Shown: piece by piece, positions 39,598 through 59,905 of the stretch
Position numbering within the stretch: position 1 is the first letter of the stretch
Layout: each line of letters starts with the position of its first letter
NCBI RefSeq assembly: GCF_034259325.1
Contig: NZ_JAXIVS010000001.1
Coordinates: forward strand, 930,001 to 994,000
From: Hyalangium ruber
GTDB lineage: Bacteria; Myxococcota; Myxococcia; Myxococcales; Myxococcaceae
Direction: 5' to 3'
DNA: 64,000 nucleotides
Notes under the pieces: generated by a model
What the model saw: the letters and a program-made list of their open reading frames with translations, nothing else
The model's database searches: none
What the model was told of the DNA's origin: nothing
Made by a program: the position numbers and the translations under genes

Positions 39598-40731
39598 ATG
39601 AGCGTCCGGCTCACCGTCACCCAGCGCAGTGAGGCCGGCAGTGCCGCCAAGCCCATCGAGCACCTGCTCGACGAGGCGAGCATCACCTTGGGCCGCGACA
39701 AGACCTGCCAGGTGGTGCTGGCGCAGCAGGCCGTGTCACGTAACCACGCGCGCATCTCCCAGGAGGGCAACCTCTTCTTCCTGGAGGACCTGGGCAGCGC
39801 CTATGGCACCCAGATCAACGGCAAGCCGCTGCCCAAGGGCGAGAAGCACCGGCTGAAGAACGGGGACGTCATCGCCATCGCGCAGTTCGACGTGAAGTTC
39901 ACCCACGTGGCGGACGTGCCGAAGAACATCGGCTCGGAGAAGACGTCCTTCGTGGCGCGCAGTCTGGTGAAGGACGCGATGCGCGGCATCGCCAGCGGCG
40001 AGGGGCCCTACTTCCGGGTGATGAACGGCCCCCGCGAGGGCGAGCGCATCGAGATCAACGACGCCCAGGAGATCATCATCGGGAGAGACGAGACGGCGGA
40101 CGTCATCTTCAAGGACGACCTCATCTCCCGCCGCCACGTGAAGCTGCGCCGCGACTGGTCCGGCACCCACGTGGAGGACCTGAACAGCCGCAACGGCATC
40201 AAGGTCAACAAGAAGAAGGTCAACCGCAAGACGCTCAAGGACAGCGACGAGATCGAGGTCGGCAACGTCCGCCTGCTCTATGTGGACCCCTCCGACGCGG
40301 CGGGGCCCTCGGTGGTCATCCCCGAGGAGCCGGTGGACGAGGGAGGCGGCGAGGAGGAAGAGGAGCACACGCAGAGCCTGCCGGCACACAAGGTCTCCTC
40401 GGTCTCCAAGCGCGTGGCGAAGCCGAAGGAAGAGGAGCCTCCGAAGGAGGAACCGCCCAAGGCGGAGGAGCCTCCCAAGGAGGAGGAGCCACCCCCGCCG
40501 GCCGAGCCGGATCCGCTGGCCTCCGAGCCGCCGCCCGAGGAACCGCCCCCGCCCGAGGAGCCGCCCCCGCCGCCCGTGATGCGGCCGCGCCCCATGCGCG
40601 AGGAGCCCATGGAGAGCGGGACGAGCCGGATCGGCGGATTCGACGTGCAGAAGATGGTGCCGCTGGCGCTGATGGGGCTGTTCGCCCTGCTGGCGATCGG
40701 CCTCATCATCGCGCTGATCGTCGGCGCCTGA
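39598..40731 (+). CDS. Double-FHA protein with C-terminal membrane anchor
   Basis: A 377-residue protein: FHA domain 1 (about 15-95: LGRDKTCQ, VSRNHARIS, NG), FHA domain 2 (about 130-225: IGRDETADV, SRRHVKL, SRNGIKVN), a Glu/Pro-rich linker (about 235-345), and a C-terminal transmembrane helix (about 350-376). Both FHA domains keep the Arg, Ser and Asn that bind phosphothreonine. It is convergent with sctV; SctD ring proteins also combine a FHA fold with a membrane helix, but lack a second FHA and have a periplasmic domain. Confidence 0.82.
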   Translation: MSVRLTVTQRSEAGSAAKPIEHLLDEASITLGRDKTCQVVLAQQAVSRNHARISQEGNLFFLEDLGSAYGTQINGKPLPKGEKHRLKNGDVIAIAQFDVKFTHVADVPKNIGSEKTSFVARSLVKDAMRGIASGEGPYFRVMNGPREGERIEINDAQEIIIGRDETADVIFKDDLISRRHVKLRRDWSGTHVEDLNSRNGIKVNKKKVNRKTLKDSDEIEVGNVRLLYVDPSDAAGPSVVIPEEPVDEGGGEEEEEHTQSLPAHKVSSVSKRVAKPKEEEPPKEEPPKAEEPPKEEEPPPPAEPDPLASEPPPEEPPPPEEPPPPPVMRPRPMREEPMESGTSRIGGFDVQKMVPLALMGLFALLAIGLIIALIVGA

Positions 40732-40782: not shown

Positions 40783-42912
40783 CTACCGGGTGGAGATACG
40801 CGCCACGGGCTGGATGTTGAGGTCCGGCGCGAGCTCCTGGTAGCTGAGCACGGAGAACGGCGGGTTGAACTCGTACTCCAGCAGCTTGCGCACGTAGCGC
40901 CGGATGTCCATCGCCGTGAGGATGACGGGGCGCTGGGCGCTGGGCGGCAGGTGGCCGCACTCGGCCTTCACGGCCTGGACGATCTCCTGGGCCAGCTCCG
41001 GCTCCAGAGCCAGGTGCGTGCCCGCCGAGGTGCGCTTGATCGAGCCGCGGATGGCCTCCTCGATCTGCGGATCCAGCAGGTAGACGACCAGGGTGCCGGT
41101 ACCGCGCGCGTACTTGTGGGAGATGTAGCGCCGCAGGGCCGCGCGCACGTGCTCGGTGAGCATCACGTTGTCGGCCTCCACCTGCCCGTACTCGGACAGC
41201 GACTGGAGGATGCCGCGCAGGTCTCGGGTGGAGATCTCCTCCTCCACGAGGCGCTGGAGGATGTCCGTGAGCTTCAGCACGTTGACGACCTTCGGCACCA
41301 CCTCCTTGATGATGGCGGGGAAGGCCTTCTCCAACTGGTCCAGCATCGTCTGGACCTCCTGGACGCCCAGGAAGTCACGCGCGTTGCGGCGGAGGATGGC
41401 CGCCAGGTGGAGGATGATGTAGCCGGGCACGTCCCAGGTGGTGAGCCCCGCGGCCTCGAGCGTGTCCCGGTACTGCTCGGGCACCCAGGCAGCCGGCTGG
41501 CGCGTGGCCGGGTTGATGGCCTCGAAGCCCTGGATGTTCATCAGCTTCAACCGGTCCACCGTGTCGTTCACCAGCACGTGGCCGATGGTGGCCTGACCGG
41601 TGACGACGGGCACCTCGTTGATCTGGATCTGGTAGGCGCCCGGCGGCAGGCCCGAGTTGCCACGCGCGCGCACGCCCGGGAAGCGTACGCCCAGCTCCAC
41701 GAAGAGGCCGTCGCGCATGAACGGGATGAGCTCGAAGAGGAACTTGCCGCTGTCCTGCCGCGAGTCCACATAGGGCACCAGCGCGTCGCTCACCTCCAGA
41801 ACGATGGGGGTAACGACGGGGACGAACAGCTCGGACTCGGGGTTGATGGGCTCCTTGGGCGCCGGCTCGCTGGAGGACGGAGTGCCGTTCTCCGACTCGG
41901 TCGGCACCATGCCGCCACCGCCCTCCTCCGCGACGGCCTCCTCCTTCTGCTTCTTGAGCATCTTCCAGGCGCCGAAGCTCGCCGCGCCGCCCAGCGCCAG
42001 GAAGGGAATGGTCGGCAGGCCGGGGATGACCGACAGCAGGAAGAGCATGCCGCCGGCGATGCCGATGGCCTTCGGGTAGGCGGTCAGCTGCGTGCCGACG
42101 TCCTTGCCCAGGTGGTTGCCCTCCTCATCGCCTCCCACGCGCGTCACGATGATACCGGCGCAGGTGGAGATGAGGATGGCGGGGATCATACCGACCAGAC
42201 CGTCACCGATGGTGAGCAGCGCGTACTTCTGCGCGGCGGCGCCCACCTCCATGCCCTTCTGCATCACGCCGATGATGAGGCCACCGACGATGTTGATGAC
42301 GGTGATGATGATGGAGGCGATGGCGTCGCCCTTGACGAACTTCATGGCGCCGTCCATGGCGCCGAACAGCTGGCTCTCACGCTCCAGGTCGCGGCGCTTG
42401 CGCTTGCCTTCCTCCATGTCGATGGAGCCGGCGCGCATGTCGGCGTCGATGGACATCTGCTTGCCGGGCATGGCGTCCAGGGTGAAGCGCGCGGCCACTT
42501 CGGCGACGCGCTCCGAGCCCTTGGAGATAACGATGAAGTTCACCACCGTGAGGATGATGAAGATGATGGCGCCGACGACGAAGTTGCCCTGAACCACGAA
42601 CTTACCGAAGGCGACGACCACCTCGCCCGGGTCACCCGTCAGCAGGATGAGTCGCGTGGTGGAGATGGTGAGCGCCAACCGGTACATCGTGGTGATGAGC
42701 AGCAGCGTCGGAAACACCGACAGCCGCAGCGCCGTTGGCACGTAGAGCGAGATGAGCAGCAGCACCACCGAGATGCTGATGTTGAACGTCAGCAGCACGT
42801 CCAACAGCAGGGTGGGCAGCGGGACGATCATCATCCCGACGATCGCCACCACCACGCAGGCCAGGACGATGTCGGAATACTTGGAGAGGAAGCTGTTCGG
42901 ATTGGATGCCAT
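40783..42912 (-). CDS. sctV: Type III secretion export gate protein SctV (FlhA family)
   Basis: A 709-residue protein. About eight membrane segments fill residues 1-330, with the FHIPEP signature in RLALTISTTRLILL and the GKQMSIDADMRAG loop. A Gly/Ser/Pro/Glu linker (about 340-380) is followed by the large cytoplasmic ring domain to the end. SctV forms the nonameric export gate. The gene is separated from the main secretion operon by needle-like and lipoprotein genes. Neighbouring TPR genes are on the same strand. Confidence 0.92.
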   Translation of the reverse strand: MASNPNSFLSKYSDIVLACVVVAIVGMMIVPLPTLLLDVLLTFNISISVVLLLISLYVPTALRLSVFPTLLLITTMYRLALTISTTRLILLTGDPGEVVVAFGKFVVQGNFVVGAIIFIILTVVNFIVISKGSERVAEVAARFTLDAMPGKQMSIDADMRAGSIDMEEGKRKRRDLERESQLFGAMDGAMKFVKGDAIASIIITVINIVGGLIIGVMQKGMEVGAAAQKYALLTIGDGLVGMIPAILISTCAGIIVTRVGGDEEGNHLGKDVGTQLTAYPKAIGIAGGMLFLLSVIPGLPTIPFLALGGAASFGAWKMLKKQKEEAVAEEGGGGMVPTESENGTPSSSEPAPKEPINPESELFVPVVTPIVLEVSDALVPYVDSRQDSGKFLFELIPFMRDGLFVELGVRFPGVRARGNSGLPPGAYQIQINEVPVVTGQATIGHVLVNDTVDRLKLMNIQGFEAINPATRQPAAWVPEQYRDTLEAAGLTTWDVPGYIILHLAAILRRNARDFLGVQEVQTMLDQLEKAFPAIIKEVVPKVVNVLKLTDILQRLVEEEISTRDLRGILQSLSEYGQVEADNVMLTEHVRAALRRYISHKYARGTGTLVVYLLDPQIEEAIRGSIKRTSAGTHLALEPELAQEIVQAVKAECGHLPPSAQRPVILTAMDIRRYVRKLLEYEFNPPFSVLSYQELAPDLNIQPVARISTR

Positions 42913-42978: not shown

Positions 42979-43764
42979 TTAGCGCCGCTTCCGGTCCCGT
43001 TGCTCTTCCGCCACCTGGAGAAGCTGCTGTGCTCGCTGGACCAGCGGGCTGCCAGCCGTGCCCTCCTCGAGCACGCGCTGCAGATCCTGCTGGGCCAGGA
43101 GCAGATCGCCCCGGGCCAGGCGGGCCTCGCCCCGGTACAGCAGGGAGCTGAGCTCCTGGGGATCCTTGGAGATCGCCTCCTCGAAGCGCTCCAGCGCTCG
43201 CTCGGTGGCTCCCTGTGCAAGGTAGATGGCGCCCAGCTGGGTGTGGACCGGGGCGGTGGCCACCCCCAGGGTGACGAGCCGCTCCAGTACGGTGCGCGCC
43301 TCGTCCAGCTTGCCCTCGGTAAAGAGGCGGCGCGCGGTGGCCAGCCGCTCGGCGACGGAGCCCGGAGCGGGCTCCACCTCCGAGGGGGGCGGTGCCCGGG
43401 ACGCCTGGGAGCGACGAGACTTACGAGAGGCGCGAGCAGGGGCCTCGGGCGCTTCCTTCGGAGCGGGAGGCGCCTCCACCTTGGCGGGGGGCGGCTCGGG
43501 CTTCACGGGTGGAGGGGGCTCGGCGGCCTGGGCGGCGGCAGGCGGCTCGGCCTTGGGCGCGGGCAGAGGCGGCGCGGGGTCGGCGGCGGCGCCTCCCTTG
43601 CGTGGGGGCCGGAGGGCGAGCTCGGGCACCGTGGGGCGAGCGCTGGCAAGCTCCTCCTCATCACGTTCCCGGCGCGACTTGGGCCGCGGGGCACGCTTCT
43701 CGAAGTGGTGGATCTTCACGGGGGCAGGAGGTTTCTTCCTGCCGGACCCCTGCGAATTGGCCAT
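42979..43764 (-). CDS. TPR protein, possible secretion chaperone
   Basis: A 261-residue protein. Residues 1-130 are Lys/Arg then Pro/Ala/Glu-rich and probably disordered. Residues 135-255 are TPR units (AERLATARRLFTEGKLDEARTVLERLV, APVHTQLGAIYLAQGATERALERFEEAI). TPR chaperones of the SycD/LcrH class bind translocators and needle subunits; the position between a second TPR gene and sctV fits that role. Confidence 0.7.
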   Translation of the reverse strand: MANSQGSGRKKPPAPVKIHHFEKRAPRPKSRRERDEEELASARPTVPELALRPPRKGGAAADPAPPLPAPKAEPPAAAQAAEPPPPVKPEPPPAKVEAPPAPKEAPEAPARASRKSRRSQASRAPPPSEVEPAPGSVAERLATARRLFTEGKLDEARTVLERLVTLGVATAPVHTQLGAIYLAQGATERALERFEEAISKDPQELSSLLYRGEARLARGDLLLAQQDLQRVLEEGTAGSPLVQRAQQLLQVAEEQRDRKRR

Positions 43765-43800: not shown

Positions 43801-44265
43801 CTACTTCTTCGGTTGTTCGGAGTTGGCGCTCCGCTGGGCGGCCTCGATGGTCTCGATGGCCGCGGCCGCCAGCAGACGCGCACGCATGGTGAGAGGATCC
43901 TTGTTCTCGGGATCCAGATCGACGGCTCGAGCGAAGTCCTGGGCTGCCTCCATGATGTTGCCCAGCCGCAGGTGGACCTCTCCTCGGTTCACCAGCGCGG
44001 CGGAGTCTTTGGGGTTGAGCCGCAGCGCGTGATGGAAGTGCTCCAGGGCCACATCGAGGTCATCTTCCGCGAGGCAGATGGCACCGAGGGCCGTCCGGTA
44101 ATACGCCTCGGCGGGGTCGCGCTCCGCCAGCTCCTCGAAGATGTGCCGGGCGTCCTCGTAGTTGCCTTGCTCGTACAGCTGGAAGGCATCCATGGCCCTT
44201 TCGAGCATCTCGGGGCCAGTGGTGCCCGCCTGCTGTGCGGTAGAGGCGTCGTCGGAGTTCGCCAT
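43801..44265 (-). CDS. Small TPR protein resembling SycD/LcrH secretion chaperones
   Basis: A 154-residue protein consisting of about three TPR units (residues 18-130), with the first helix pair DAFQLYEQGNYEDARHIFEELAERDP. The length matches class II secretion chaperones (about 150-170). It is divergent from needle-like copy 1. Its partner is not proven. Confidence 0.7.
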   Translation of the reverse strand: MANSDDASTAQQAGTTGPEMLERAMDAFQLYEQGNYEDARHIFEELAERDPAEAYYRTALGAICLAEDDLDVALEHFHHALRLNPKDSAALVNRGEVHLRLGNIMEAAQDFARAVDLDPENKDPLTMRARLLAAAAIETIEAAQRSANSEQPKK

Positions 44266-44481: not shown

Positions 44482-44511
44482 GGAAACTCCGGGAGGGGTC
44501 CGACCCATAAT
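44482..44511 (+). promoter_or_regulatory. Promoter of needle-like copy 1
   Basis: GGAAAC (44482-44487), 18 bases, then CATAAT (44506-44511). The same elements at the same spacing precede copies 2 and 3, and a variant precedes copy 4. The downstream stretch TCCATTTGTAAGGGTTGCTG is also conserved. Confidence 0.65.
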
Positions 44512-44566
44512 CCATTTGTAAGGGTTGCTGCTCCCCACCTACCCCGCCTCTCTGAAGGAGACTGCC

Positions 44567-44794
44567 ATGTCGATCACGAACAACGCCAACAACGCCATCC
44601 GCGATGCCAAGAGCCCCTCGACCCAGCTGACCTCCATCGAGCAGGACACCCTGGCTGGCCTCACCGGTGACGACTACAAGCGCGCCTACGCCCAGCTCAT
44701 GCTCCAGAAGCAGCAGGAGACCGTCTCCTTCGTCTCCAACGTCATGAAGAAGCGCAACGAGATGATCATGGCCACCGTGGGTAACCTCCGCTAA
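44567..44794 (+). CDS. Needle-like (SctF-type) subunit, copy 1
   Basis: A 75-residue, mostly helical protein. The N-terminus is NAN-repeat-like (ITNNANNAIRDAKSP), a central turn reads LTGDDYKRAY and the C-terminal helix ends in GNLR. Known needle subunits are about 80 residues, two helices with a central turn, and end in a I-x-N-x-R-like motif; this fits, and the gene lies inside a secretion locus. GAAGGAG is 6 bases before the ATG at 44567, which is conserved in all copies. It encodes exactly the same protein as copies 2, 3 and 4. Identity as needle is inference. Confidence 0.75.
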   Translation: MSITNNANNAIRDAKSPSTQLTSIEQDTLAGLTGDDYKRAYAQLMLQKQQETVSFVSNVMKKRNEMIMATVGNLR

Positions 44795-44820
44795 GCCCTC
44801 GGTTTCTCTCGCTGTCTCTT

Positions 44821-44871
44821 CCGGCCTCGTGTGGCTCGCCCCTGGCGAACCTCACGGGGCCGGTTGCTTTT
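44821..44871 (+). terminator. Terminator of needle-like copy 1
   Basis: CCGGCCTCGTG (44821-44831) and CACGGGGCCGG (44853-44863) pair with one G-T wobble, followed by TTGCTTTT. Same hairpin as after copies 2 and 3. Confidence 0.8.
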
Positions 44872-44930
44872 CGGCCCTCTTTTGACGCACCGCATCATGC
44901 CCGGGAGAAAATCTCCGAAAAATGATCGGA

Positions 44931-44960
44931 GGAAACTCCGGAAGGGCTCCGTCCCATAAT
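44931..44960 (+). promoter_or_regulatory. Promoter of needle-like copy 2
   Basis: GGAAAC (44931-44936), 18 bases, CATAAT (44955-44960). A GGAG-GAAA-CTCC hairpin motif overlaps the -35 element. Confidence 0.65.
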
Positions 44961-45010
44961 CCATTTGTAAGGGTTGCTGCTCCCACCCACTTCTCCAAAA
45001 GGAATTCGCC

Positions 45011-45238
45011 ATGTCCATCACCAACAACGCCAACAACGCCATCCGCGACGCCAAGAGCCCCTCGACCCAGCTCACCTCCATCGAGCAGGACACCCTGGCC
45101 GGCCTCACCGGTGACGACTACAAGCGCGCCTACGCCCAGCTCATGCTCCAGAAGCAGCAGGAGACCGTCTCCTTCGTCTCCAACGTCATGAAGAAGCGCA
45201 ACGAGATGATCATGGCCACCGTGGGTAACCTCCGCTAA
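45011..45238 (+). CDS. Needle-like (SctF-type) subunit, copy 2
   Basis: 75 residues, same protein as copies 1, 3 and 4. The coding sequence appears identical, base for base, to copy 3. The distance from copy 1 start to copy 2 start is 444 bases. AAAGGAA precedes the ATG. Confidence 0.78.
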   Translation: MSITNNANNAIRDAKSPSTQLTSIEQDTLAGLTGDDYKRAYAQLMLQKQQETVSFVSNVMKKRNEMIMATVGNLR

Positions 45239-45264
45239 GCCTTCCGCTTCTCTCGCTGTCCCTT

Positions 45265-45320
45265 CCGGCCTCGTGTGGCTCGCCCCCCCCGGCGATCCTC
45301 ACGGGGCCGGTTGCTTTTTT
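45265..45320 (+). terminator. Terminator of needle-like copy 2
   Basis: CCGGCCTCGTG (45265-45275) and CACGGGGCCGG (45300-45310), followed by TTGCTTTTTT. Confidence 0.8.
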
Positions 45321-45374
45321 CACGTCCCCCACTGTTCCATAGCGCGCGACTCCGCCCGCCTCGAGGAACCCTCC

Positions 45375-47300
45375 ATGCGCCGCTTGCCCCTCCTCTTCCT
45401 GTGCGCCACCTGCGCCCTGATGCTCTCCACGGGCTGTGGAGGCGGGGATGATCCCGTCCCCGACTCGGGCACACCCTACGTGCCGCCCATCCCCGACGCG
45501 GGCACTCCGGACTCGGGCGTCCCGGACTCGGGGACGGTCGATCTCTTTCCTCCCTCCGTGAGCAGCCACACGCCCCCGAACAACGCCATCGCCGTGCCCC
45601 CCGAGAGCGTCATCACCGTGACGTTCAACGAGCCGATGCGGGCCGACCGAGGGACGCTGCAGATCTCCCCGGGCAACACCCTGATCCAGGTGCGCCCGGA
45701 GTTCTGGAACACCGCCCGGACCACGGTGACGTTCACCTTCGCTCAGGGCCTGCCGCTGAAGACGAAGCTGACCCTCAACGTGGTCGACTTCGCGGATGCG
45801 GCCGGCAATCCCCTGCCCGCCCCCTTCACCTTCACCTTTACGGTGAGCGACGGGCTGCCCCCGCGCGTCGCCGAGGCCGCTCCCATCGAGGGCGCCAGCC
45901 AGGTGCCCCTCAGCACCGCCCAGGTCTCCCTCACCTTCAACGAGCCCATGGACACCAGCGTGGGCACGCTCACTCCGGGCGGCGGCCTCACCCTGGGCAC
46001 GCCCACCTGGAGCGCCGACAAGCAGACCCTCACGGCCCCTATCTCCGGGCTCGTCAACAACGGCGTCTACTCCGTGCGGCTCCAGGGCTTCCGCAACCTC
46101 ATCGGCAAGGCCTTCGACGAGACCACCTACCTGGGAGACGGCAAGCTGGACTTCGGCACCGGCCCCGACGTCACCCCGCCCACGGTGGCCGAGACCAGCC
46201 CGGCGCCCGGTGAGCAGAACGTGCCCGCCGACAGCACCTCACTGATCTACGTCGCCTTCAGCGAGCCCATGAGCCCCGTTGGCACCGCGACCCTGGTGGA
46301 CAACGGCAACACCCCTCTGGCTGCCACCTGGTCGTCGGATGGGTTCATCGCCACCTTCGACGTGCTGGATCGCCTGCGCCCGGGCGCCACCCTGCGCGTG
46401 CAGTTCGCCGGCTTCAAGGATCGGGCAGGCAACGCCTTCAACCCGAACGTCTACCTGACCAGCGGCGCCATCACCTTCGCCACGGCGACCGATCGCACCC
46501 GGCCCTACGTGGTGAGCTCCAACCCCGCCGAGGGCGCACAGGAGGTTTACGCCTTCGAGCTCTACGTCAAGCCCGGCAGCCCGCCGACGGTGGGCCAGCG
46601 CAAGGTCATCACCTTCCAGTTCAGCGAGCCGATGAACACCGCCTTCATGGATGGCACGCTGTATTCCACCGGGGATGGCACCATCCCGCCTCGCACCCTC
46701 ACCGGCCAGTGGTCCACCAATCGCCGGACGCTGACCTTCACCCTCAACCCGCCGCCGACGGGCGGGCCTCCGCTGGAGCAGTTCCGCCAGTACAGCCTGG
46801 ACCTCTCCACGCTCCGGGATCCTTCCGGCAACCTGCTCGACACGATGCACCCGGTGCTGCAGGACGGCCGGCTCGACTTCAAGACCCTGCCCAACGACGT
46901 GGACCTCAACCAGGCGTGCGAGGACGTGCTGCTGAAGACGAACCTCATCTCCGTCACCGCCACCAGCACCATCACCGGCGCGACGCCCCGCACGGACGTG
47001 CTCCGCGAGCGCTACTCGGTGACGCTGCCCGCCAGCGGCACGCAGTTCCAGGGCTTCACCAAGTTCATCCCCAGCACCCACGCCGAGTACTCGCTGTTCC
47101 TCAGCACGAGCGTGTTGACCACGATGACGGACGCGACGGGCGAGTCCGCCATCGTCCGGCAGGGCAACGCTCCGGACGCGTGCCCCAACCACATCCGCTA
47201 CTACGTGGACTTCGCGGCCCGGAGCTACCCCGAGCTGCGCATGCGCTTCGGCCCCTCGGCGGAGTCCCAGTTCCAGCTCCTGCTCCTCGGGACGCTCTGA
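45375..47300 (+). CDS. Lipoprotein with Big_5-type Ig-like domains
   Basis: A 641-residue lipoprotein (lipobox LSTGC, Cys near residue 21). After a Pro/Asp/Ser-rich linker with DSGTP repeats there are four Ig-like units, each starting with a PP..SSxTP or similar turn and containing the motif F(N/S)EPM (about residues 80, 190, 295, 415), as in Big_5 domains. A distinct C-terminal domain (about 510-641) has three Cys. The ATG at 45375 begins the signal peptide. It is embedded between needle-like copies 2 and 3, so a surface role linked to the secretion locus is possible but unproven. Confidence 0.8.
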   Translation: MRRLPLLFLCATCALMLSTGCGGGDDPVPDSGTPYVPPIPDAGTPDSGVPDSGTVDLFPPSVSSHTPPNNAIAVPPESVITVTFNEPMRADRGTLQISPGNTLIQVRPEFWNTARTTVTFTFAQGLPLKTKLTLNVVDFADAAGNPLPAPFTFTFTVSDGLPPRVAEAAPIEGASQVPLSTAQVSLTFNEPMDTSVGTLTPGGGLTLGTPTWSADKQTLTAPISGLVNNGVYSVRLQGFRNLIGKAFDETTYLGDGKLDFGTGPDVTPPTVAETSPAPGEQNVPADSTSLIYVAFSEPMSPVGTATLVDNGNTPLAATWSSDGFIATFDVLDRLRPGATLRVQFAGFKDRAGNAFNPNVYLTSGAITFATATDRTRPYVVSSNPAEGAQEVYAFELYVKPGSPPTVGQRKVITFQFSEPMNTAFMDGTLYSTGDGTIPPRTLTGQWSTNRRTLTFTLNPPPTGGPPLEQFRQYSLDLSTLRDPSGNLLDTMHPVLQDGRLDFKTLPNDVDLNQACEDVLLKTNLISVTATSTITGATPRTDVLRERYSVTLPASGTQFQGFTKFIPSTHAEYSLFLSTSVLTTMTDATGESAIVRQGNAPDACPNHIRYYVDFAARSYPELRMRFGPSAESQFQLLLLGTL

Positions 47301-47340
47301 CCGAGGCGCCAGCCCTGGCGGCAAGCGCCGCCGCCGGGGC

Positions 47341-48126
47341 TCACGGGCCCTTCAGCTCGAGATCCAGCTCGTGGATCGCCGCATCCGGGAACGGGGTGTT
47401 GAAGATCGCCGTCACCGAGTCCTGCAGCGTCTCGGTGTTGCGCAGGCGCAGCTGCATCGGCTTGGGCGTCTGGCCCGCGGGCGCCAGGCGCGCGGTGATG
47501 ACGTAGCGGCCCAGTGCGATGTCCCGGACCGAGTCCGAGCCAGCCGGGGGCTTGGCCGTCACCGCCTGCCCCGTGCTGCCGTCGATCAACGGGCCATCGG
47601 GCGTGAACGTCAGCTCCACGTCCTGCCGCTCGAAGTACACCTCGTCCCCCGGCACCCGGTAGATGTTCACCGAGGCCCCGTAGAACCGATCCTGCTCGGC
47701 GCGAGGGCCCGTCAGCTTCCAGGTGAAGTTGCGCACCGCGCCTTCCGTGCCCGCGAACGCGTTGGGGTTCTCGGGGGCCAGGTCGATCTTGTAGGTGCGG
47801 CCCTGGAACGGGCGCTCCATCTGGATGGAGACCTTCCAGCTCCCGTTGGGCACCTCGACCCGGTAGCGCCCGTCCTGCCCCGTCGTCCCGAAGACGTATG
47901 AGGCGAGGAAGACCGTGTTCTCCACCACGACCTTGAGGTTCTGCAGGGGCTTGCCCTGGGTGTCGACGACCAGCCCCTTCACCACCCCGCCCTCCAAGCC
48001 CCCGGAGCCCCCTCCTCCCCCCGGGTTGTCCGAGCCCCCGTCCGGGACGGACGAGCCATTGCCAGAGCAGGCCACCAGGGCCGCGGCGAGCCAGAACGTC
48101 CATACCCCTCTCAAGAATGTGCGCAT
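47341..48126 (-). CDS. Lipoprotein with carboxypeptidase-regulatory-like domain
   Basis: A 261-residue lipoprotein (signal to LAAALVAC, then Ser/Gly-rich linker). Residues about 50-110 have a carboxypeptidase-regulatory/Ig-like fold pattern (VKGLVVDTQGKPLQNLKVVVENT followed by TTGQDGRYRVEVPNG). The rest is a beta-rich part without a known family. It lies on the opposite strand to its neighbours, convergent with the Big_5 gene and divergent from needle-like copy 3. The start at 48126 has AAGG upstream. Confidence 0.72.
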   Translation of the reverse strand: MRTFLRGVWTFWLAAALVACSGNGSSVPDGGSDNPGGGGGSGGLEGGVVKGLVVDTQGKPLQNLKVVVENTVFLASYVFGTTGQDGRYRVEVPNGSWKVSIQMERPFQGRTYKIDLAPENPNAFAGTEGAVRNFTWKLTGPRAEQDRFYGASVNIYRVPGDEVYFERQDVELTFTPDGPLIDGSTGQAVTAKPPAGSDSVRDIALGRYVITARLAPAGQTPKPMQLRLRNTETLQDSVTAIFNTPFPDAAIHELDLELKGP

Positions 48127-48193
48127 AACACCTACCTTGGTTGGAAGCATCGAAGGTTCACCCTGAGAGAAAATCCCCGAAAAAATGATCGGA

Positions 48194-48223
48194 GGAAACT
48201 CCTCAGGGGGTCCGTCCCATAAT
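48194..48223 (+). promoter_or_regulatory. Promoter of needle-like copy 3
   Basis: GGAAAC (48194-48199), 18 bases, CATAAT (48218-48223), with the conserved TCCATTTGTAAGGGTTGCTG downstream. Confidence 0.65.
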
Positions 48224-48272
48224 CCATTTGTAAGGGTTGCTGCTCCACCCACTTCTCCAAAAGGAATCCGCC

Positions 48273-48500
48273 ATGTCCATCACCAACAACGCCAACAACG
48301 CCATCCGCGACGCCAAGAGCCCCTCGACCCAGCTCACCTCCATCGAGCAGGACACCCTGGCCGGCCTCACCGGTGACGACTACAAGCGCGCCTACGCCCA
48401 GCTCATGCTCCAGAAGCAGCAGGAGACCGTCTCCTTCGTCTCCAACGTCATGAAGAAGCGCAACGAGATGATCATGGCCACCGTGGGTAACCTCCGCTAA
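48273..48500 (+). CDS. Needle-like (SctF-type) subunit, copy 3
   Basis: 75 residues, same protein as copies 1, 2 and 4. It looks identical to copy 2 through the whole coding sequence and most of both flanks (about 400 bases). Confidence 0.78.
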   Translation: MSITNNANNAIRDAKSPSTQLTSIEQDTLAGLTGDDYKRAYAQLMLQKQQETVSFVSNVMKKRNEMIMATVGNLR

Positions 48501-48526
48501 GCCTTCCGCTTCTCTCGCTGTCCCTT

Positions 48527-48580
48527 CCGGCCTCGTGTGGCTCGCCCCCCCCGGCGATCCTCACGGGGCCGGTCGCTTTT
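48527..48580 (+). terminator. Terminator of needle-like copy 3
   Basis: CCGGCCTCGTG (48527-48537) and CACGGGGCCGG (48562-48572), then TCGCTTTT. Confidence 0.8.
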
Positions 48581-48638
48581 GGGCCCCCGGCTTGATCCGG
48601 GACCGGAACTTCACGGAAAATGAAATTGGAAATCCGGA

Positions 48639-48667
48639 AGAAACTCTCAGTCCGGCTTCCCGATAAT
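48639..48667 (+). promoter_or_regulatory. Promoter variant of needle-like copy 4
   Basis: AGAAAC (48639-48644), 17 bases, GATAAT (48662-48667), then TCAGTTTGTAGG. It differs from the other three in the -10 first base, spacing and flanks, so this copy may be regulated differently. Confidence 0.5.
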
Positions 48668-48716
48668 CAGTTTGTAGGCAGTACCCCACCCCAATCAGCC
48701 TTCTGGAGTTACCGCC

Positions 48717-48944
48717 ATGTCGATCACCAACAACGCCAACAACGCCATCCGCGACGCCAAGAGCCCCTCGACCCAGCTCACCTCCATCGAGCAGGACACC
48801 CTGGCTGGCCTCACCGGTGACGACTACAAGCGCGCCTACGCCCAGCTCATGCTCCAGAAGCAGCAGGAGACCGTCTCCTTCGTCTCCAACGTCATGAAGA
48901 AGCGCAACGAGATGATCATGGCCACCGTGGGTAACCTCCGCTAA
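48717..48944 (+). CDS. Needle-like (SctF-type) subunit, copy 4
   Basis: 75 residues, same protein as copies 1-3 but with a different 5' leader and 3' flank. It lies 444 bases after copy 3, the same spacing as copies 1 and 2. GGAG precedes the ATG. It is followed by copy 5 without an obvious promoter in between. Confidence 0.78.
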   Translation: MSITNNANNAIRDAKSPSTQLTSIEQDTLAGLTGDDYKRAYAQLMLQKQQETVSFVSNVMKKRNEMIMATVGNLR

Positions 48945-48972
48945 CGGTCGCTGAAGTCCCGAAGCAGTCCCA

Positions 48973-49026
48973 GCCGGCCGCGCATCCCGGTTGCCCTCGA
49001 GGCAACCGGTGGCGTGGCCGGTTTCG
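48973..49026 (+). terminator. Two-step hairpin after needle-like copy 4
   Basis: An outer stem CCGGCCGCGC / GCGTGGCCGG encloses a perfect 9-bp stem CCGGTTGCC (48987-48995) / GGCAACCGG (49001-49009). A short TTTCG follows. It may let part of the transcripts read through into copy 5. Confidence 0.55.
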
Positions 49027-49059
49027 TATGCGGGTCTTCGCATTCCCTGGGAAGAAACC

Positions 49060-49281
49060 ATGGACATCTCCAAAGTCTCCGACGCAGCCATGCTCGCCGC
49101 GCTGCGGTCCAGCACCGGCCTGAGCCAGGTCGAGCAGGACACGCTGTCCGGCCTCACCGGCGACGACTACAAGCGCGCCTACGCTCAGCTCATGCTTCAG
49201 AAGCAGTCCGAGACCGTCTCCTTCTGCAGCAACGTGCTGAAGAACGGCTCGAAGATGACGTCGATCAACAACCTGCGCTAA
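49060..49281 (+). CDS. Divergent needle-like subunit, copy 5
   Basis: A 73-residue paralogue. It shares the core LTGDDYKRAYAQLMLQKQ with the others but has a different N-terminus (MDISKVSDAAMLAALRSS), a Cys (SFCSN) and the ending SINNLR. It could be a tip, rod or minor subunit while copies 1-4 provide the bulk. No promoter like that of copies 1-4 is visible upstream. Confidence 0.72.
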   Translation: MDISKVSDAAMLAALRSSTGLSQVEQDTLSGLTGDDYKRAYAQLMLQKQSETVSFCSNVLKNGSKMTSINNLR

Positions 49282-49307: not shown

Positions 49308-49363
49308 CCGGCCTCACGCCAGGCGGCCCCCTTCGGGCCCCGGGTGTGGGGCCGGTTGCTTTT
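49308..49363 (+). terminator. Terminator of needle-like copy 5
   Basis: CCGGCCTCACGCC pairs with GGGTGTGGGGCCGG (with mismatches), followed by TTGCTTTT. An inner hairpin GGCCCCCTTCGGGCC sits in the loop. Confidence 0.7.
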
Positions 49364-49503: not shown

Positions 49504-49884
49504 TTACTCCCAGCGGTCCGACAGAAGCTCCTTCATGCGGCGCTTCATCTTGCCCACGAACGCGTCATCGCGGAGCTTGTTCGAGAACTCGTAGCCGTAC
49601 TTCTTGGAGGAGACCTCCTTGAACTTGTCGCCGATCTCCTGCTCGGAGGCGTTCGGGTTCTCCGCCAGCCACTTCTCCATGTCCTTCTTGATCTCGTCGC
49701 GCATGTGCGTCGCGCGGCCCTCGCCCAGGCCCTTCTTGCGAGACTCGAAGAACTTGTTGATCTCGCCGGCGACCGCATCCTTCGACATCGGAGCGGCCGG
49801 CTGATCGGCGCTCGCCTGCGCGGAGGAAGAGGCAGGGGCGGCCGGCGGAGTCGGAGAGGTGTAGCCCGAGATAGTGTTTCCCAT
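49504..49884 (-). CDS. Small secretion-locus protein, 126 residues
   Basis: N-terminus Ser/Pro/Ala-rich (about 1-35), then a helical, highly charged half (KFFESRKKGLGEG, MRDEIKKDMEKWLAENP). GGGAG lies upstream of the start (49884). It is the last gene before the operon terminator. I recognise no family; an exported substrate or chaperone is possible. Confidence 0.65.
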   Translation of the reverse strand: MGNTISGYTSPTPPAAPASSSAQASADQPAAPMSKDAVAGEINKFFESRKKGLGEGRATHMRDEIKKDMEKWLAENPNASEQEIGDKFKEVSSKKYGYEFSNKLRDDAFVGKMKRRMKELLSDRWE

Positions 49885-50012: not shown

Positions 50013-50585
50013 TCAGCCCTTGAGCTTGCCGAGGCTGGGGTTCTTCATCCAGTTCTTGAAGGACTCGATCTCCTTCTGCTCGGTCTTCGGATCCAGAGGC
50101 TGGTTCGAGGGCGGCGCGTCCGGGTTGCCCAGGGACATGGCCTTGGAACCCTTGCCCGACTCGAAGCCATCCTGGGGACCCTTGGCGCGGGGCGCCGAGG
50201 CCGGAGCCGACGCAGTGGCGGCGGGAGCCGGAGCCGCGGCCTGCTGCTCCGCGGGCGCAAAGCCGCGCGTGGACAGGTAGGCGCTCATCCACTCCAGGGC
50301 CTCCATGAGGACGTCGGGCGTGGGGCCGGCGGCGGCGTCCTTGGAGTAACGGAGGAAGGCCTCCTTCACGTCGTTGTAGAGCTGAACGTCGATCTGCGCG
50401 CCCTGCTTGGTGTTGCTCAACAGCGCGGCCGTCTTGCGCAGCACCTGCTGGAGCGAGCCAGTGGAGGTCTTGGCGATCTTCTCCATCTCGGCGGCGATCT
50501 TCTCGCGCTTCTCGAGCAGCTCGGGCGGAGCCTCGGGGGGAGCCATAGACGGATCAACGATCGGCTTCTTCTGCTCACTCGACAT
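50013..50585 (-). CDS. Secretion-locus protein, 190 residues
   Basis: A helical N-terminal half (PELLEKREKIAAEMEKIAKTS, then a stretch ending WMSAYLSTRGF) and an Ala/Pro-rich linker with a C-terminal motif SFKNWMKNPSLGKLKG. The start at 50585 (second ATG) gives a normal distance to GGAGG; the first ATG at 50594 would sit directly on it. No recognised family. Its place among the TPR genes and 126-residue protein suggests a substrate or regulator. Confidence 0.65.
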   Translation of the reverse strand: MSSEQKKPIVDPSMAPPEAPPELLEKREKIAAEMEKIAKTSTGSLQQVLRKTAALLSNTKQGAQIDVQLYNDVKEAFLRYSKDAAAGPTPDVLMEALEWMSAYLSTRGFAPAEQQAAAPAPAATASAPASAPRAKGPQDGFESGKGSKAMSLGNPDAPPSNQPLDPKTEQKEIESFKNWMKNPSLGKLKG

Positions 50586-50685
50586 GAAATCCATCCTCCG
50601 TGTAGGGGAGCAGGCAGCCTAGCAGAAAGACCCTTCCACCCGGAAAGATCCACCTAGACGTGCCCTTCCGTGCGGTCCGCCCGCC

Positions 50686-51162
50686 TCAGCGGCGCGAGAG
50701 CGCGGAGATCATCGCGTTGGCCTTGCGCGTCACGGGGTCATCCTCGGGCGCCAGCGTGGCGGCGCGGCGCAGGTCGTCCATGGCCTGCGTCTTCTGTCCC
50801 ATACTGAGCTTTACCTCGGCGCGGCCCACGTAGGCCTGGCCGTCGTTGGGAGCCAGCTTGATGGCCACGTCATAGGCGGCCAGCGCGCCCTGGCCGTTTC
50901 CGGCGGCCAGTTCCACCACGCCCAGCGCCTTGGCGAAGTAGGCGTCCGTGGGGTTCACCGCGTAGAGCCCCTGGAAGAGCGTGCGGGCCTCGTTCACCCG
51001 GCCCTGGTAGAAGAAGAAGTAGGCCGTCTTGGCGATGGCGTAGAGCTCTTCGTCCGAGTAGCCGCGCACCTCGCGCAGGGTGGCCTTGCCATCGGCCCAC
51101 TTCTGCAGCGCCGCGACGAGCTTGGCCTCTTCCTGGGGGCTGTTGGGATCCGGTGCGGCCAT
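50686..51162 (-). CDS. SycD/LcrH-like TPR secretion chaperone
   Basis: A 158-residue protein with three TPR units (AIAKTAYFFFYQGRVNEARTLFQGLYAVNP, YFAKALGVVELAAGNGQGALAAYDVAI, AYVGRAEVKLSMGQKTQAMDDLRRAA). YxxGrxxeAxxxFxxL is the SycD-like pattern, and the length fits class II chaperones. The start at 51162 lies just after the next gene upstream in the transcript. Confidence 0.8.
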   Translation of the reverse strand: MAAPDPNSPQEEAKLVAALQKWADGKATLREVRGYSDEELYAIAKTAYFFFYQGRVNEARTLFQGLYAVNPTDAYFAKALGVVELAAGNGQGALAAYDVAIKLAPNDGQAYVGRAEVKLSMGQKTQAMDDLRRAATLAPEDDPVTRKANAMISALSRR

Positions 51163-51166
51163 GGCG

Positions 51167-51646
51167 TTAGAAGCCCTCGTCCTTCTGTTCCTCGTGCATG
51201 CGGCGGCGGATCTCCTGCACCTCGGAGTGGACGTGGCCCACCAGCGCCAGCATCTGCGCCTCGCGCTGCAGCAGCGCCTTGAGCCGGTCCATGCGGTCCG
51301 GCGGCGCGTTGATGCGCGCCAGCCCGCGCTCCAGCAGCCGGCGCTGGTCGTTCTCGCCGCGCTCGGCCACCGACTCCAGGTGGGGCCGGTCCGAGAAGCC
51401 CTCGAGCGGGGCGTCGTTGTTGCGCGGGTTGGGCGGCGAGGGCAGCCGCATCTCCTCCGAGGAGTGCGCCGGCCCGATGAAGTCCAGCAGCGCCGCCGAG
51501 GCCAGGGCCGGGTTCTTCGGGTTGCCGGCCTTGCCCGCCTTCTTGCGGTTGAGCTGCGAGGGGTCGACGAGCTTCTCGCGAACGCTGCGCGGACCACCCC
51601 ACGGCCAGAGGGGCGCTTTCGGGGGCTGATTATTGATATTCGCCAT
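51167..51646 (-). CDS. Secretion-locus protein, 159 residues
   Basis: N-terminal half Pro/Asn/Lys-rich, C-terminal half helical (LKALLQREAQMLALVGHVHSEVQEIRRRMHEEQ, predicted coiled coil). Four bases separate it from the chaperone gene, so they are co-translated. No family recognised; a partner of the chaperone is a fair guess. Confidence 0.65.
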   Translation of the reverse strand: MANINNQPPKAPLWPWGGPRSVREKLVDPSQLNRKKAGKAGNPKNPALASAALLDFIGPAHSSEEMRLPSPPNPRNNDAPLEGFSDRPHLESVAERGENDQRRLLERGLARINAPPDRMDRLKALLQREAQMLALVGHVHSEVQEIRRRMHEEQKDEGF

Positions 51647-52009: not shown

Positions 52010-53074
52010 TCACGCGCGAGCCGGGGCCCCGCCGCCCTTCAACCCGTAGACGAAGTTGAGGACCTCGGCCACCGCGTCGTACAGCTCCTCGGGGATGTCC
52101 TGCCCCACGTCCACCCGGAGAAGCGCGTGCGCCAGCGGCACGTTGCGCAAGAGCGGCACGTCCGCGCTCCGGGCGAGTTCCTTGATCTTCTCGGCCTTGA
52201 AGTCGAGCCCCTTGGCCAGCACCCGGGGGGCGGCGTCCTTCTCCCGGTCGTACTTGAGCGCCACGGCGACGTGGTCGGGGTTGGTGACGATCACGTCGGC
52301 GCTCTTGACGGACTCCATCTGAGCGCCCTCCATGATCTCCTGGTGCATCTGCTTGCGGTGGGCCTTGTGGTGCGGGTCGCCTTCGCTCTCCTTGTATTCC
52401 TTCTTCACGTCGTCCTTCGACATCATCATGTCCTTCATGTAGGACTTGCGCTGCCACCAGACGTCGAAGATGCCGAAGAGGATGAAGACGAGGCCCACCC
52501 GGGCGGCCACGCGGTACACCAGCTCGCCCATGACGGCCATGATGCCGACCACGTCCTGATTCACCGTCTGCACCACCATGCCCATGGCGTCGCGCACCAC
52601 ACCGTAGACGACGTAGGCGGCGATGCAGATCTTCGTGAGATTCTTGATCAGCTCGACCACGGCCTTCTTGGAGAACATGTTCTTCAAGCCGCCGATGGGG
52701 TTGAGCTTGTCGAACTTGGGCATCAGCGGGTCCATGGTGAAGAGCGCCCCCACCTGGAGGAACTCCACCAACCCGCCGATGATGGCGCCGCTCAAGGCCA
52801 CCGGAATGGTGAGCAGCACCACGGTGCGCACCGACATCTCCATGAGCTGATACGTGGCCACATCGAGCATCTCGGGCTTGCCGATGTGATCGAAGGTGAA
52901 GCGGAAGAGCGTCTTCACCTCCTCCTCGATCATGTCCCAGGTGCTCTTGAGGGCGCCCAGGCCGACGAGGAAGACGAACACGGCCGTCAGGTCCTTGCTC
53001 TTCCAGACCTGACCCTTCTTGCGTGAGTCGTCGAGCTTCTTTTGTGTGGGTTCTTCTGTCTTTTCGTCGGACAT
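52010..53074 (-). CDS. sctU: Type III secretion switch protein SctU (FlhB family)
   Basis: A 354-residue protein with four membrane segments (residues 28-210), a charged linker and a C-terminal domain. The autocleavage motif NPTH is here NPDH (N265, P266, D267, H268), followed by [12 protein letters not shown]. SctU sets substrate specificity. It lies next to sctT and a free-standing C-terminal domain gene. Confidence 0.9.
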
Positions 53075-53087
53075 GACGAACCCCGCC

Positions 53088-53906
53088 TCAGGTGAGGATT
53101 CTCAGCGCCTGCTTGAGGGACGCGAGCATGGAGACGAACTCTCTCTGAAAGCGCCCCATGAGCAGCGGCAGGGCGATGGCGGCGACGATCACGCCCACCA
53201 GCGGCTTGATGGCCATGGAGATGAAGAAGACCTGGATCTGCGGGGCCACGCGGTTGATGGCGCCCAGCGCCAGGTCCGTGAGGAAGGTGGCCAGCATGAT
53301 GGGGGCCGCCAGCGCGAGGCTGATCGCCAGCAGGTCCGCGAAGACGCGGATCATCAGGTCGAAGAACGGCCAGACGCCGCCGCTGAACTGGGGGAACTTG
53401 TCCAGGGGGATGGCGACGAGGCTGTCGGCCAGCGCCTCGATGACGATGTGGTGCCCGTTGAGCGTGAGGAAGAGCACCACGGCCAGTTGCACCTTGAGGC
53501 TGGAGAGGAGCGACACCTGCTGGCCGAGCTGGGGCACGTAGAGCTGGGCGTTGTTGCTGCCGGCCATGGTGTCGGCCAGGGTGCCGGCCACACGTGCGGC
53601 GTCGAAGACGACGTTGACGATGAAGGCCAACGTCACCCCGATGAAGATCTCCTTCAGCAGCAGAGCGATGTAGGGCAGCGCCGTGGTGGGCAGCGCGCCC
53701 ATGGTGCCGGACACCGCGGGGAACATCACGATGGCCAGGGTGATGCCCACGCCCATCTTCACCTCGGTGGGCACCACCTCGCCGCCGAGGAACGGGGAGA
53801 AGATCAGCACCGGCATCACCCGGCACATGAGCAAGCCCACCGTGAAGATGACGAGCGAGAGATTGGTCTCCGCTCGTAGCTGTGAGAGGACGTCCGAGAC
53901 GTTCAT
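53088..53906 (-). CDS. sctT: Type III secretion export apparatus protein SctT (FliR family)
   Basis: A 272-residue protein with about six membrane segments and FliR-like GWQQ/VWPFFDL features. The ATG at 53906 overlaps the sctS stop (ATGA). Longer starts overlap sctS and are unlikely. Confidence 0.9.
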   Translation of the reverse strand: MNVSDVLSQLRAETNLSLVIFTVGLLMCRVMPVLIFSPFLGGEVVPTEVKMGVGITLAIVMFPAVSGTMGALPTTALPYIALLLKEIFIGVTLAFIVNVVFDAARVAGTLADTMAGSNNAQLYVPQLGQQVSLLSSLKVQLAVVLFLTLNGHHIVIEALADSLVAIPLDKFPQFSGGVWPFFDLMIRVFADLLAISLALAAPIMLATFLTDLALGAINRVAPQIQVFFISMAIKPLVGVIVAAIALPLLMGRFQREFVSMLASLKQALRILT

Positions 53907-54169
53907 CGCGCGATGAGGGCCGGGAACTGGTCGAAGACGTGGAAGGTGAAACGCACGAGCTGGTGGCCGATCCACGGCCCCGTCATGGCGAGCACCATGA
54001 ACACCACGATGACCTTGGGAGCAAAGGTGAGCGTCTGCTCCTGGATCTGCGTGGTGGCCTGGAAGAGCGCGATGATGAAGCCCACCAGGAGGCTGATGAT
54101 GACGGGCGGCGCCGAGGCGACGAGCACCAAGTAGAGCGCCTGCTGGGTGATGACGGACAGTTGGTGCAT
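53903..54169 (-). CDS. sctS: Type III secretion export apparatus protein SctS (FliQ family)
   Basis: An 88-residue protein with two membrane segments separated by a polar hairpin (PVIISLLVGFIIALFQATTQIQEQTLTFAPK). The start at 54169 (MHQLSV) is chosen from the FliQ pattern. Overlaps sctT in ATGA. Confidence 0.92.
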   Translation of the reverse strand: MHQLSVITQQALYLVLVASAPPVIISLLVGFIIALFQATTQIQEQTLTFAPKVIVVFMVLAMTGPWIGHQLVRFTFHVFDQFPALIAR

Positions 54170-54179
54170 GGCGCGTCTC

Positions 54180-55007
54180 CTACAGGTAGCCGATGACCAG
54201 GCCCTTGGCGATGAGGTACCAGCCATCGACGAGGACGAAGAGCAAGAGCTTGAAAGGCATGGAGATGGTGGTCGGTGACAGCATGTGCATGCCGAGCGCC
54301 AGGAGGATGTTGGCCACCACCATGTCGATGACGATGAAGGGCACGAAGAGCAGGAAGCCGATCTGGAAGGCCTCCTTCAATTCGGACACCACGAAGGCGG
54401 GGATGATGATCATGAAATCCTTGTCCCCGATGCTCTCGCGGTCCTCCGCCTTGCGCATCTTCTTCGCCAGGTGGAAGAAGAGCGCGCGGTCCTTGTCCTT
54501 CACCTTGCGGATGAGGAAGTCGCGCAGCGGCTCCTTGGAGCGGTTGGCCGCTTCCAACATGGTGCCCACTGTCTCCGAGGAGAGGAGACTGGGTCCCTTG
54601 GCCCAGATGTCCACCGCCGCGGCCCGGTACATCTCCTGCCCCACGGGGGCCATGATGTAGACGGTGAGGATGATGGCCAGGCCCGTAATCACCTGGGTGG
54701 GCGGGATCTGCTGGGTGCCCAGCGCCGAGCGGACAATGGAGAGCACCACCGAGATCTTCACGAAGCTCGTCACCATCATCAACATGAACGGCACGAGCGA
54801 CAGAGCCGCCAGCGCCAGGATGAGGATGAGCGGCCGCGAGGCGAACGACTCGTTCGTCGCGGAGTTGATGACTTCTTCGGGAACGGCGTCAGGCCCCCCA
54901 CCCTTGCGGCGCTGGGCGAGGGCGACCGCCGGCTGAAGCGCGATCGCGGCGGCGAAGAGCCAGGGGGTGATTCGGGAGAGGGTCGAACGAGCGGACGAGA
55001 GAGTCAC
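54180..55007 (-). CDS. sctR: Type III secretion export apparatus protein SctR (FliP family)
   Basis: A 275-residue protein with an N-terminal signal-like helix, then four membrane segments; FliP signatures FVKISVVLSIVRSALGTQQIPP and LLFVPFIVIDMVVANILLALGM are present. GTG start at 55007. As in FliP, the cleaved signal-like N-terminus is expected. Confidence 0.92.
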   Translation of the reverse strand: MTLSSARSTLSRITPWLFAAAIALQPAVALAQRRKGGGPDAVPEEVINSATNESFASRPLILILALAALSLVPFMLMMVTSFVKISVVLSIVRSALGTQQIPPTQVITGLAIILTVYIMAPVGQEMYRAAAVDIWAKGPSLLSSETVGTMLEAANRSKEPLRDFLIRKVKDKDRALFFHLAKKMRKAEDRESIGDKDFMIIIPAFVVSELKEAFQIGFLLFVPFIVIDMVVANILLALGMHMLSPTTISMPFKLLLFVLVDGWYLIAKGLVIGYL

Positions 55008-55018
55008 GGGAGCGATCT

Positions 55019-55648
55019 TCAGGACTGAGGAGGCTGGGAGCCGGTCCGGCGGGAGAGGAGCTTCTGGAGAAAAGGGCTCAGGGGGACGACGTTGGCCCGG
55101 GGGCTCTCGGCGCGGATGCGCTCGACGGCCTGGGTATCGAGCTTCGACAGGAGCTGCAGACCGCCCTCACCGCCACCCACCAGCAGGTACTCGTCCGCGG
55201 CCTTCAACACGAAAAGGGTGCGACGCTGGTCCAGCGGGACGCGCTCCAGCACCGTCACCACCGACTGGCGCCCGGCTCCCACGTTCTGCAGCCCCATCAG
55301 CCGGCGCAGGCCCACGTTGAGCGTCAGGTAGATGGAGGCAATCACCGCCCCCAGCAGGAACAGCGTGCGCGCCAGCGTCCAGCCCAGCCCCTCCGGCTCT
55401 TCGGCGGTCGCCGAGGGTGCGAACGGGTCGGGCAGCTCCTTCTCGGTCTGCGCGGGCGCTGCGACAGGTGCCGGTGCCTCGGAAGCTGGCGTGGCCGGAG
55501 CCGGTGCGGCGACGGGGGCCGGAGCGGGAATGGGAGCCGCCGCGGCAGGCTGCGCGGGGGCCTGCGCCCCAGCGAACGTGGGCGCGAGCAGCAGCAGGGC
55601 GCTGGCCAGGAGGGCCGGACGTGATTGGGAGACGAGGAAAACCGCCAT
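55019..55648 (-). CDS. FliO-like membrane protein
   Basis: A 209-residue protein: signal peptide (to FAGA), Ala/Pro-rich linker (30-85), one transmembrane helix (about 100-125, TLFLLGAVIASIYLTLNVGLRRLM) and a small domain with SVVTVLERVPLDQRRTLFVLKAADEYLLVGGGEGGLQLLSKL, the pattern of FliO. It sits between sctQ and sctR, as fliO sits between fliN and fliP in flagellar operons. FliO is not usual in dedicated secretion systems. Start 55648 preferred; an in-frame ATG at 55690 is possible. Confidence 0.8.
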   Translation of the reverse strand: MAVFLVSQSRPALLASALLLLAPTFAGAQAPAQPAAAAPIPAPAPVAAPAPATPASEAPAPVAAPAQTEKELPDPFAPSATAEEPEGLGWTLARTLFLLGAVIASIYLTLNVGLRRLMGLQNVGAGRQSVVTVLERVPLDQRRTLFVLKAADEYLLVGGGEGGLQLLSKLDTQAVERIRAESPRANVVPLSPFLQKLLSRRTGSQPPQS

Positions 55649-55742
55649 GACTGGGAGCGAGGCTAGTCCATTCCACCGCGAGACCGCCATGGCTCCACGC
55701 CAGTTCCGGGGAGCCCCCCTGCCTGCCCTCCAACCTGCGCGG

Positions 55743-58039: not shown

Positions 58040-58066
58040 CGCGTATCCCTGCGGAAGAAGGAGAGG

Positions 58067-58555: not shown

Positions 58556-58591
58556 GGGGAGCCCATTCTAACCCGGAAAACCCCGCGAGCG

Positions 58592-59902: not shown

Positions 59903-59905
59903 GGC

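Follow-up and report, generated by a model that had tools for sequence, protein, structure and literature searches.

Candidate needle subunits encoded by a five-copy gene array in a type III secretion locus of Hyalangium ruber

The stretch of the Hyalangium ruber genome analysed here (64,000 nucleotides of contig NZ_JAXIVS010000001.1, positions 930,001 to 994,000; hereafter the window) carries an array of five small genes within a type III secretion system (T3SS) locus. We think it likely that these genes encode needle-type (SctF-type) subunits of the surrounding T3SS, amplified in dosage and belonging to a late transcription class, in systems that have been published as needle-less. The first-pass annotation of this DNA had referred to such a description, and the literature agrees with it: Abby and Rocha reported Myxo systems without SctF, inferred its loss and argued that their profiles were able to find SctF (PMC3459982), and the needle-less label has been retained in a review (PMC10433427) and in recent work (PMC12075869). 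In the literature that could be searched, we found no report of needle candidates in myxobacterial T3SS. The short proteins mostly lie below single-sequence detection and therefore could have been missed earlier; the 'needleless' label for these myxobacterial T3SS may be wrong.

To avoid circularity, the claim of homology to needle subunits was based on alignments A1 and A3, whose members were chosen with the window protein only, because A2 and A5 hold members picked with PF09392. Profile A1 consists of 14 short relatives, gathered solely by similarity to the window protein and with no needle reference. Compared with 177,635 PDB sequences, it had a sole significant match, the 43-residue chain F of 7y6c (E=1.4e-4); a profile with the long relatives added, also without needle selection, matched the same chain at E=6.5e-7. 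Because its sequence bears the C-terminus of a needle, this chain is presumably a needle fragment bound to a co-chaperone. With the profile of all relatives, including those found with PF09392, PrgI and MxiH follow at E-values of 0.008-0.05, aligned to their last residues. The inner rod SctI/YscI is also a small axial T3SS protein with a C-terminal helix, but the system in the window has a clear sctI of its own, and hhalign gave 93.9% (short forms alone) and 96.5% (66 members) against needle sequences compared with 3.2% for the array family against this SctI, so that the kinship is with needles and an inner-rod identity could be ruled out. The value for SctI against needles was 6.8%. These profile comparisons place the C-terminal ~50 residues of the array proteins in one family with the solved T3SS needle subunits, apart from the inner rod.

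Supporting this placement is the observation that PF09392 is the most frequent Pfam family among the members (9 of the 21 found without needle selection and 18 of 29 overall), its curated cut-off being exceeded only by long relatives, in two genomes. The last 19 residues of the window protein share the spacing of MxiH and PrgI, with S-N, K three residues later and a closing N-L-R or N-F-R. The domain forms the protein C-terminus, no more than 2 residues lying beyond it in 112 of 122 distinct matches. The short forms (71-76 residues) consist of little beyond this needle-like domain, have the length of classical needle subunits and carry no signal peptide. In other words, the array proteins resemble known SctF subunits (MxiH, PrgI and the 7y6c fragment; PF09392) in being encoded in a T3SS locus, in their size (~75-80 residues in SctF), in the domain at the extreme C-terminus and in a C-terminal helix with the S-N-x-x-K ... 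I/V-x-N-L/F-R ending at the same spacing, a likeness that is significant at the level of the family profile. They differ from SctF in that sctN often has 2-7 near-identical copies close by, the majority of them behind a promoter of their own, whereas the classical subunit is encoded by a single gene before sctI; in addition, the family has long relatives with extra N-terminal parts, and the T3SS has no local secretin.

Translations of the open reading frames and comparison of the repeats bear out the five-copy family that had been noticed at first. Copies 1-4 encode the same 75-residue protein, to which the 73-residue product of copy 5 is 60-62% identical. At the DNA level the array is a repeat family, copies 1-4 being 98-99% identical and copy 5 73% identical. 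Between any two of copies 1-4 there are 0-5 nucleotide differences, every one of them synonymous, and the coding DNA of copies 2 and 3 is identical, while the flanks of copy 4 drift down to background identity with those of the other copies. Synonymous-only differences together with drifted flanks would fit homogenisation and purifying selection. There are no further close copies in the whole 10.8-Mb genome, and its relatives besides the array are a long one at C1:995785 and an orphan long one at C6:331250. An Ig-like (Big_5) protein with a lipoprotein-like start lies between copies 2 and 3 (45273-47300, + strand). It has no counterpart in the other array loci tested and was therefore excluded from the parts of the array.

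Each of copies 1-4 forms a small unit of its own, with a conserved promoter before the gene and a hairpin after it. The promoter motif ends 49-55 nucleotides upstream of the start codon in each of the four, and copy 5 has no motif of its own. A stable hairpin follows all five copies, and in copies 1, 2, 3 and 5 it is succeeded by a short T run. FliA promoters have the form TAAAGTTT-N11-GCCGATAA. In many genera, most array copies are preceded by GAAACTCC or GAAACTTC, a spacer of 11-12 nucleotides and CCGATAATC or CCCATAATC; the pattern GAAACTCC-N11..12-CCGATAA or CCCATAA likewise precedes most copies. A genome-wide search with GAAACT-N13..17-CSATAATC, for which the reversed pattern served as control, returned four sites in the 10.8-Mb genome, all upstream of copies 1-4, and none for the reversed pattern, which also had zero matches in 96 genomes (spacer 14-16). 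The array is more than a product of chance, because the promoters of copies 1-4 are specific to them within the genome, hairpins follow every copy, and related genera have similar arrays at the corresponding position of their T3SS loci. In other genomes, an array-type promoter is also found upstream of a small number of other genes, including those for a LysM-CHAP (cell-wall hydrolase-like) protein (L192:788-1459, - strand) and a 247-residue protein (L188:583-1323, + strand), both of which are candidate T3SS* substrates.

As the first-pass annotation had stated, the array lies within a T3SS locus: on the + strand, it is flanked by minus-strand genes, sctV (40783-42912) and TPR genes on one side and the run from sctU to sctJ (52010-63402), continued by sctI, on the other. 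Beyond the window, upstream of sctI (L036:3980-6348), there follow a FliA/WhiG-type sigma factor, a 131-residue protein, a SycD-like TPR chaperone and a 188-residue paralogue with the needle-like tail. The sigma factor gene, part of the T3SS operon and next to sctI (L036:3980-4813, - strand), matches the FliA/WhiG subfamily at E=5.7e-33, below the curated cut-off of the model, and its product may well read the array promoters. This arrangement recalls the flagellin (FliC) class under FliA/sigma28, in which genes for a filament-type substrate also lie outside the core operon behind sigma28-like promoters and a FliA-family sigma factor is encoded with the export apparatus. The array differs in that its protein is needle-like, its -35 element is GAAACT as against the enteric consensus TAAAGTTT, and no FlgM was found. 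The 131-residue protein (L036:4821-5216, - strand) has a Gly-rich N-terminus and a conserved C-terminal half, and in most long loci its gene lies next to that of the FliA/WhiG-type sigma factor. A FlgM-like anti-sigma role would fit its position but is no more than a guess, there being no convincing match in Pfam or PDB.

The array follows the T3SS across the bacterial family of H. ruber (Myxococcaceae). The short-form profile has members in 95 of its 96 genomes, and the sole genome without a member is also without an sctN match. Among the short copies that share a contig with sctN, the distance is 8.9-15.1 kb in 100 of 109, a genome having 1-7 such copies; in 10-Mb genomes such proximity would be expected by chance for well under 1% of copies. 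An array between the sctU side and TPR-sctV is also present in Myxococcus, Citreicoccus and other loci. Copies within one array are nearly identical to each other, and for those of other genera identity to the window protein is mostly 24-56%. In one draft genome (L185, G101:C3:766700-767272) a contig stops just past an array promoter; arrays can therefore break assemblies, and their identical copies may have helped to hide them. The published 'needleless' T3SS* of Myxococcus xanthus (MXAN_2434-2464), which we compared through strain AM003 (L076), has the same gene set and order as the window and high identity to it (sctN 90%). In contrast to the published description, AM003 carries a long needle-tail gene in both of its T3SS loci as well as short copies: a full one of 74 residues with promoter, which shares its contig with a FliP-family (sctR) match at a distance of ~5 kb, and a fragmentary second one, truncated where the contig ends. 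A Myxococcus-like T3SS locus, its sctN 90% identical to that of the window, is also found under the name Comamonas sp. KCTC 72670 (L072, BNCN01000014.1), in a record that is probably misnamed or contaminated.

The first-pass statement that the locus has no other SctF holds within the window and fails ~2 kb past its end, where the 188-residue paralogue (L036:5782-6348, - strand) has the same C-terminal domain as the array proteins behind a Gly/Ser/Ala-rich N-terminal part. Judged by this paralogue, the nearest named relative is Hyalangium versicolor. Two long architectures share the needle-like tail. The first (~146-190 residues) is encoded before sctI-sctJ in the two myxobacterial T3SS loci, M. 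xanthus included: immediately before them in the short locus, and separated from them by TPR, 131-residue and sigma genes in the long one. In prgI-prgJ-prgK and mxiH-mxiI-mxiJ, the SctF gene stands directly before sctI-sctJ, unlike the array, which does not occupy this position. The paralogue upstream of sctI would be a second needle-domain component. The second architecture (MGF-type, ~190-250 residues) is encoded beside a SycD-like chaperone of the type whose gene comes after sctU. In one genome (L187, G007:C1:3855800-3860000) four copies of a long, 188-residue needle-tail protein of this second type stand ~10 kb from sctN, each behind an array promoter, and no short copies were detected.

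Several observations weigh against a needle identity. The 7y6c record is named after the needle co-chaperone, and the key match is to a chain of 43 residues only. Taken alone, the 75-residue protein has no needle match in Pfam, NCBIfam or PDB. Since PF09392 does not match it, the relationship to needle subunits proposed by the first-pass annotation stands at the level of the family (profile against PDB, PF09392 as the commonest Pfam family, hhalign) and not at that of the single protein, which we therefore call needle-like and not a Pfam member. Its sole Pfam match is a weak, sub-threshold one to DUF4142 (copies 1 and 5). Two AlphaFold models are of low confidence (predicted local distance difference test, pLDDT, 59 and 66); in that of the 75-residue protein (mean pLDDT 66, predicted template modelling score 0.33) helices span residues 3-18, 23-31 and 35-74, and Foldseek/VIA with a low-confidence model found no match. 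A long C-terminal helix (35-74) after shorter ones is no more than compatible with a hairpin. One could argue from the DUF4142 match, from the short and helical nature of the matched stretch and from the low model confidence that the array encodes unrelated small helical proteins, such as half a DUF4142 ferritin-like bundle or chaperones, in which short amphipathic helices have converged on needle-like sequences. We regard this as extremely improbable, because DUF4142 was found in 2 of 29 members, in single-sequence matches below the cut-off (18 bits vs 27), compared with 18 for PF09392, because the PDB search ranks the needle fragment first among all sequences, and because the array is syntenic with the T3SS. 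An origin from DUF4142 or ferritin-like proteins was accordingly rejected.

Needle ancestry alone does not make a needle: the long relatives, whose N-terminal parts vary, might be secreted proteins or axial ones of another kind. The short proteins too might be substrates that the T3SS secretes but that do not form the needle shaft (early substrates, caps, translocator-like proteins or effectors, for example), in which the needle-type C-terminal helix serves as a module for export or docking. Such a role would agree with the association of long forms with SycD-like chaperones, a class best known for translocators, and with the array promoter preceding non-needle genes in other genomes, and the true SctF could then be the paralogue upstream of sctI. 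However, the short forms amount to barely more than the needle-like domain, have the classical needle length and occur as nearly identical multiple copies, so we consider this explanation unlikely. The other difficulty comes from tails that are 61-67% identical to that of the long paralogue and occur on signal-peptide-like proteins of Bacteroidota, Acidobacteriota and others, in genomes mostly without a FliP/SctR homologue. The needle-like domain may therefore have an existence outside T3SS, which makes the step from domain to needle weaker without abolishing it. With regard to genomes without secretion genes, where finding the family was to count against the first-pass proposal, the outcome is divided: these related tails do occur there, but the short multi-copy form was not seen outside the bacterial family. 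Such tails, and some solo short copies that lie far from sctN, might suggest a general self-assembly or surface module, used with or without T3SS, the array product being a surface or matrix protein that lies in the T3SS locus by chance. This strikes us as very unlikely, since the position and copies of the array follow the T3SS locus across the bacterial family, down to the memberless genome that lacks sctN, and since the short forms have no signal peptide. Finally, sigma control of the array is based on promoter resemblance and gene neighbourhood only, and the T3SS locus encodes no secretin; of the three secretins in the genome, the sole one on the same contig lies ~97 kb from the array.

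As a separate observation on these tails, a nearly invariant FNLQYLQLQSQMQHENRSYTAISNIMKTKHDTVKNSISNVR stands at the C-terminus of the proteins in L108, L110, L114, L116, L121-L124, L126, L127 and L132, most of which have signal-peptide-like N-termini. They come from Bacteroidota, Alphaproteobacteria, Acidobacteriota, Rokubacteria and Chlorobi, mostly from genomes without a FliP homologue.

If the array genes do encode needle-type subunits, these would be exported by the T3SS of their own locus through SctRSTUV after completion of the base, possibly assisted by the SycD-like TPR chaperones of the locus, and would build a needle or short filament upon the SctI rod, polymerising through their C-terminal helix. 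The gene copies would raise the dose so that subunits are made in quantity, and the dedicated FliA/WhiG-type sigma factor beside sctI would both time and boost their transcription as a late class, like that of flagellin genes in flagella. As the locus has no secretin, the polymer may remain periplasmic or use that of another system. It is tempting to speculate further, and this we hold more tentatively, as about an even possibility at best, that predatory myxobacteria do equip their 'needleless' T3SS* with a needle or filament, made from dosage-amplified array genes switched on late by a T3SS-encoded FliA-type sigma factor, which would be a flagellum-style programme for an injectisome-like machine directed against prey.

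The current model of M. xanthus predation assumes a needleless T3SS*, possibly borrowing the Kil pilus for effector delivery (PMC12075869, PMC10433427), and this premise would change if the array proteins are needle subunits. A candidate axial protein would then be available for both T3SS loci, and a handful of small genes could be tested directly in a tractable laboratory organism. The genome-specific promoter offers a route to further T3SS* genes, possibly including effectors. Multi-copy, near-identical needle genes with promoters of their own would also be an unusual dosage strategy for a structural protein of a T3SS.

Table 1. Features of the array and of the surrounding T3SS locus (window positions)
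Feature	Position	Strand	Evidence or remark
FliA/sigma28-like promoter of copy 1	44483..44512	+	
Copy 1, needle-like 75-residue protein	44567..44794	+	Open reading frame translation, repeat-family comparison
Terminator-like hairpin after copy 1	44821..44863	+	z -6.0
FliA/sigma28-like promoter of copy 2	44932..44961	+	
Copy 2, protein identical to copy 1	45011..45238	+	Open reading frame translation
Terminator-like hairpin after copy 2	45265..45310	+	z -5.6
FliA/sigma28-like promoter of copy 3	48195..48224	+	
Copy 3, identical protein, coding DNA as copy 2	48273..48500	+	Open reading frame translation, pairwise DNA comparison
Terminator-like hairpin after copy 3	48527..48572	+	z -3.2
FliA/sigma28-like promoter of copy 4	48640..48668	+	
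Copy 4, identical protein, diverged flanks	48717..48944	+	Open reading frame translation, pairwise DNA comparison
Strong hairpin after copy 4, no clear T run	48972..49023	+	z -4.1
Copy 5, 73 residues, ~60% identical to copies 1-4, no promoter motif of its own	49060..49281	+	
Terminator-like hairpin after copy 5	49308..49355	+	z -2.9
SctD-like FHA / Yop-YscD_cpl protein	39598..40731	+	
sctV (FHIPEP)	40783..42912	-	E=2e-236
TPR protein	42979..43764	-	
TPR protein adjoining array	43801..44265	-	Weak HrpB1_HrpK match
126-residue protein, T3SS operon end	49504..49884	-	Similar gene in Myxococcus loci
193-residue protein	50013..50594	-	Conserved at T3SS operon end
SycD/LcrH-family T3SS chaperone (TPR)	50686..51597	-	Match over cut-off
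sctU	52010..53074	-	
sctT	53088..53975	-	
sctS	53903..54226	-	
sctR	54180..55007	-	
FliO-like protein	55019..55690	-	
sctQ	55743..57098	-	
sctP/FliK-like	57095..58039	-	Weak match
sctO (YscO-like)	58067..58555	-	
sctN ATPase	58592..59902	-	
sctL	59906..60580	-	
FliG_C-like T3SS-operon protein, 639 residues	60605..62524	-	Weak FliG C-terminal match only
sctJ	62590..63402	-	
sctI	63532..64000	-	Extends past window end

Elsewhere in the window (26753-30840, + strand), two adjacent similar proteins each combine a metallo-beta-lactamase domain with a lamin-tail domain.

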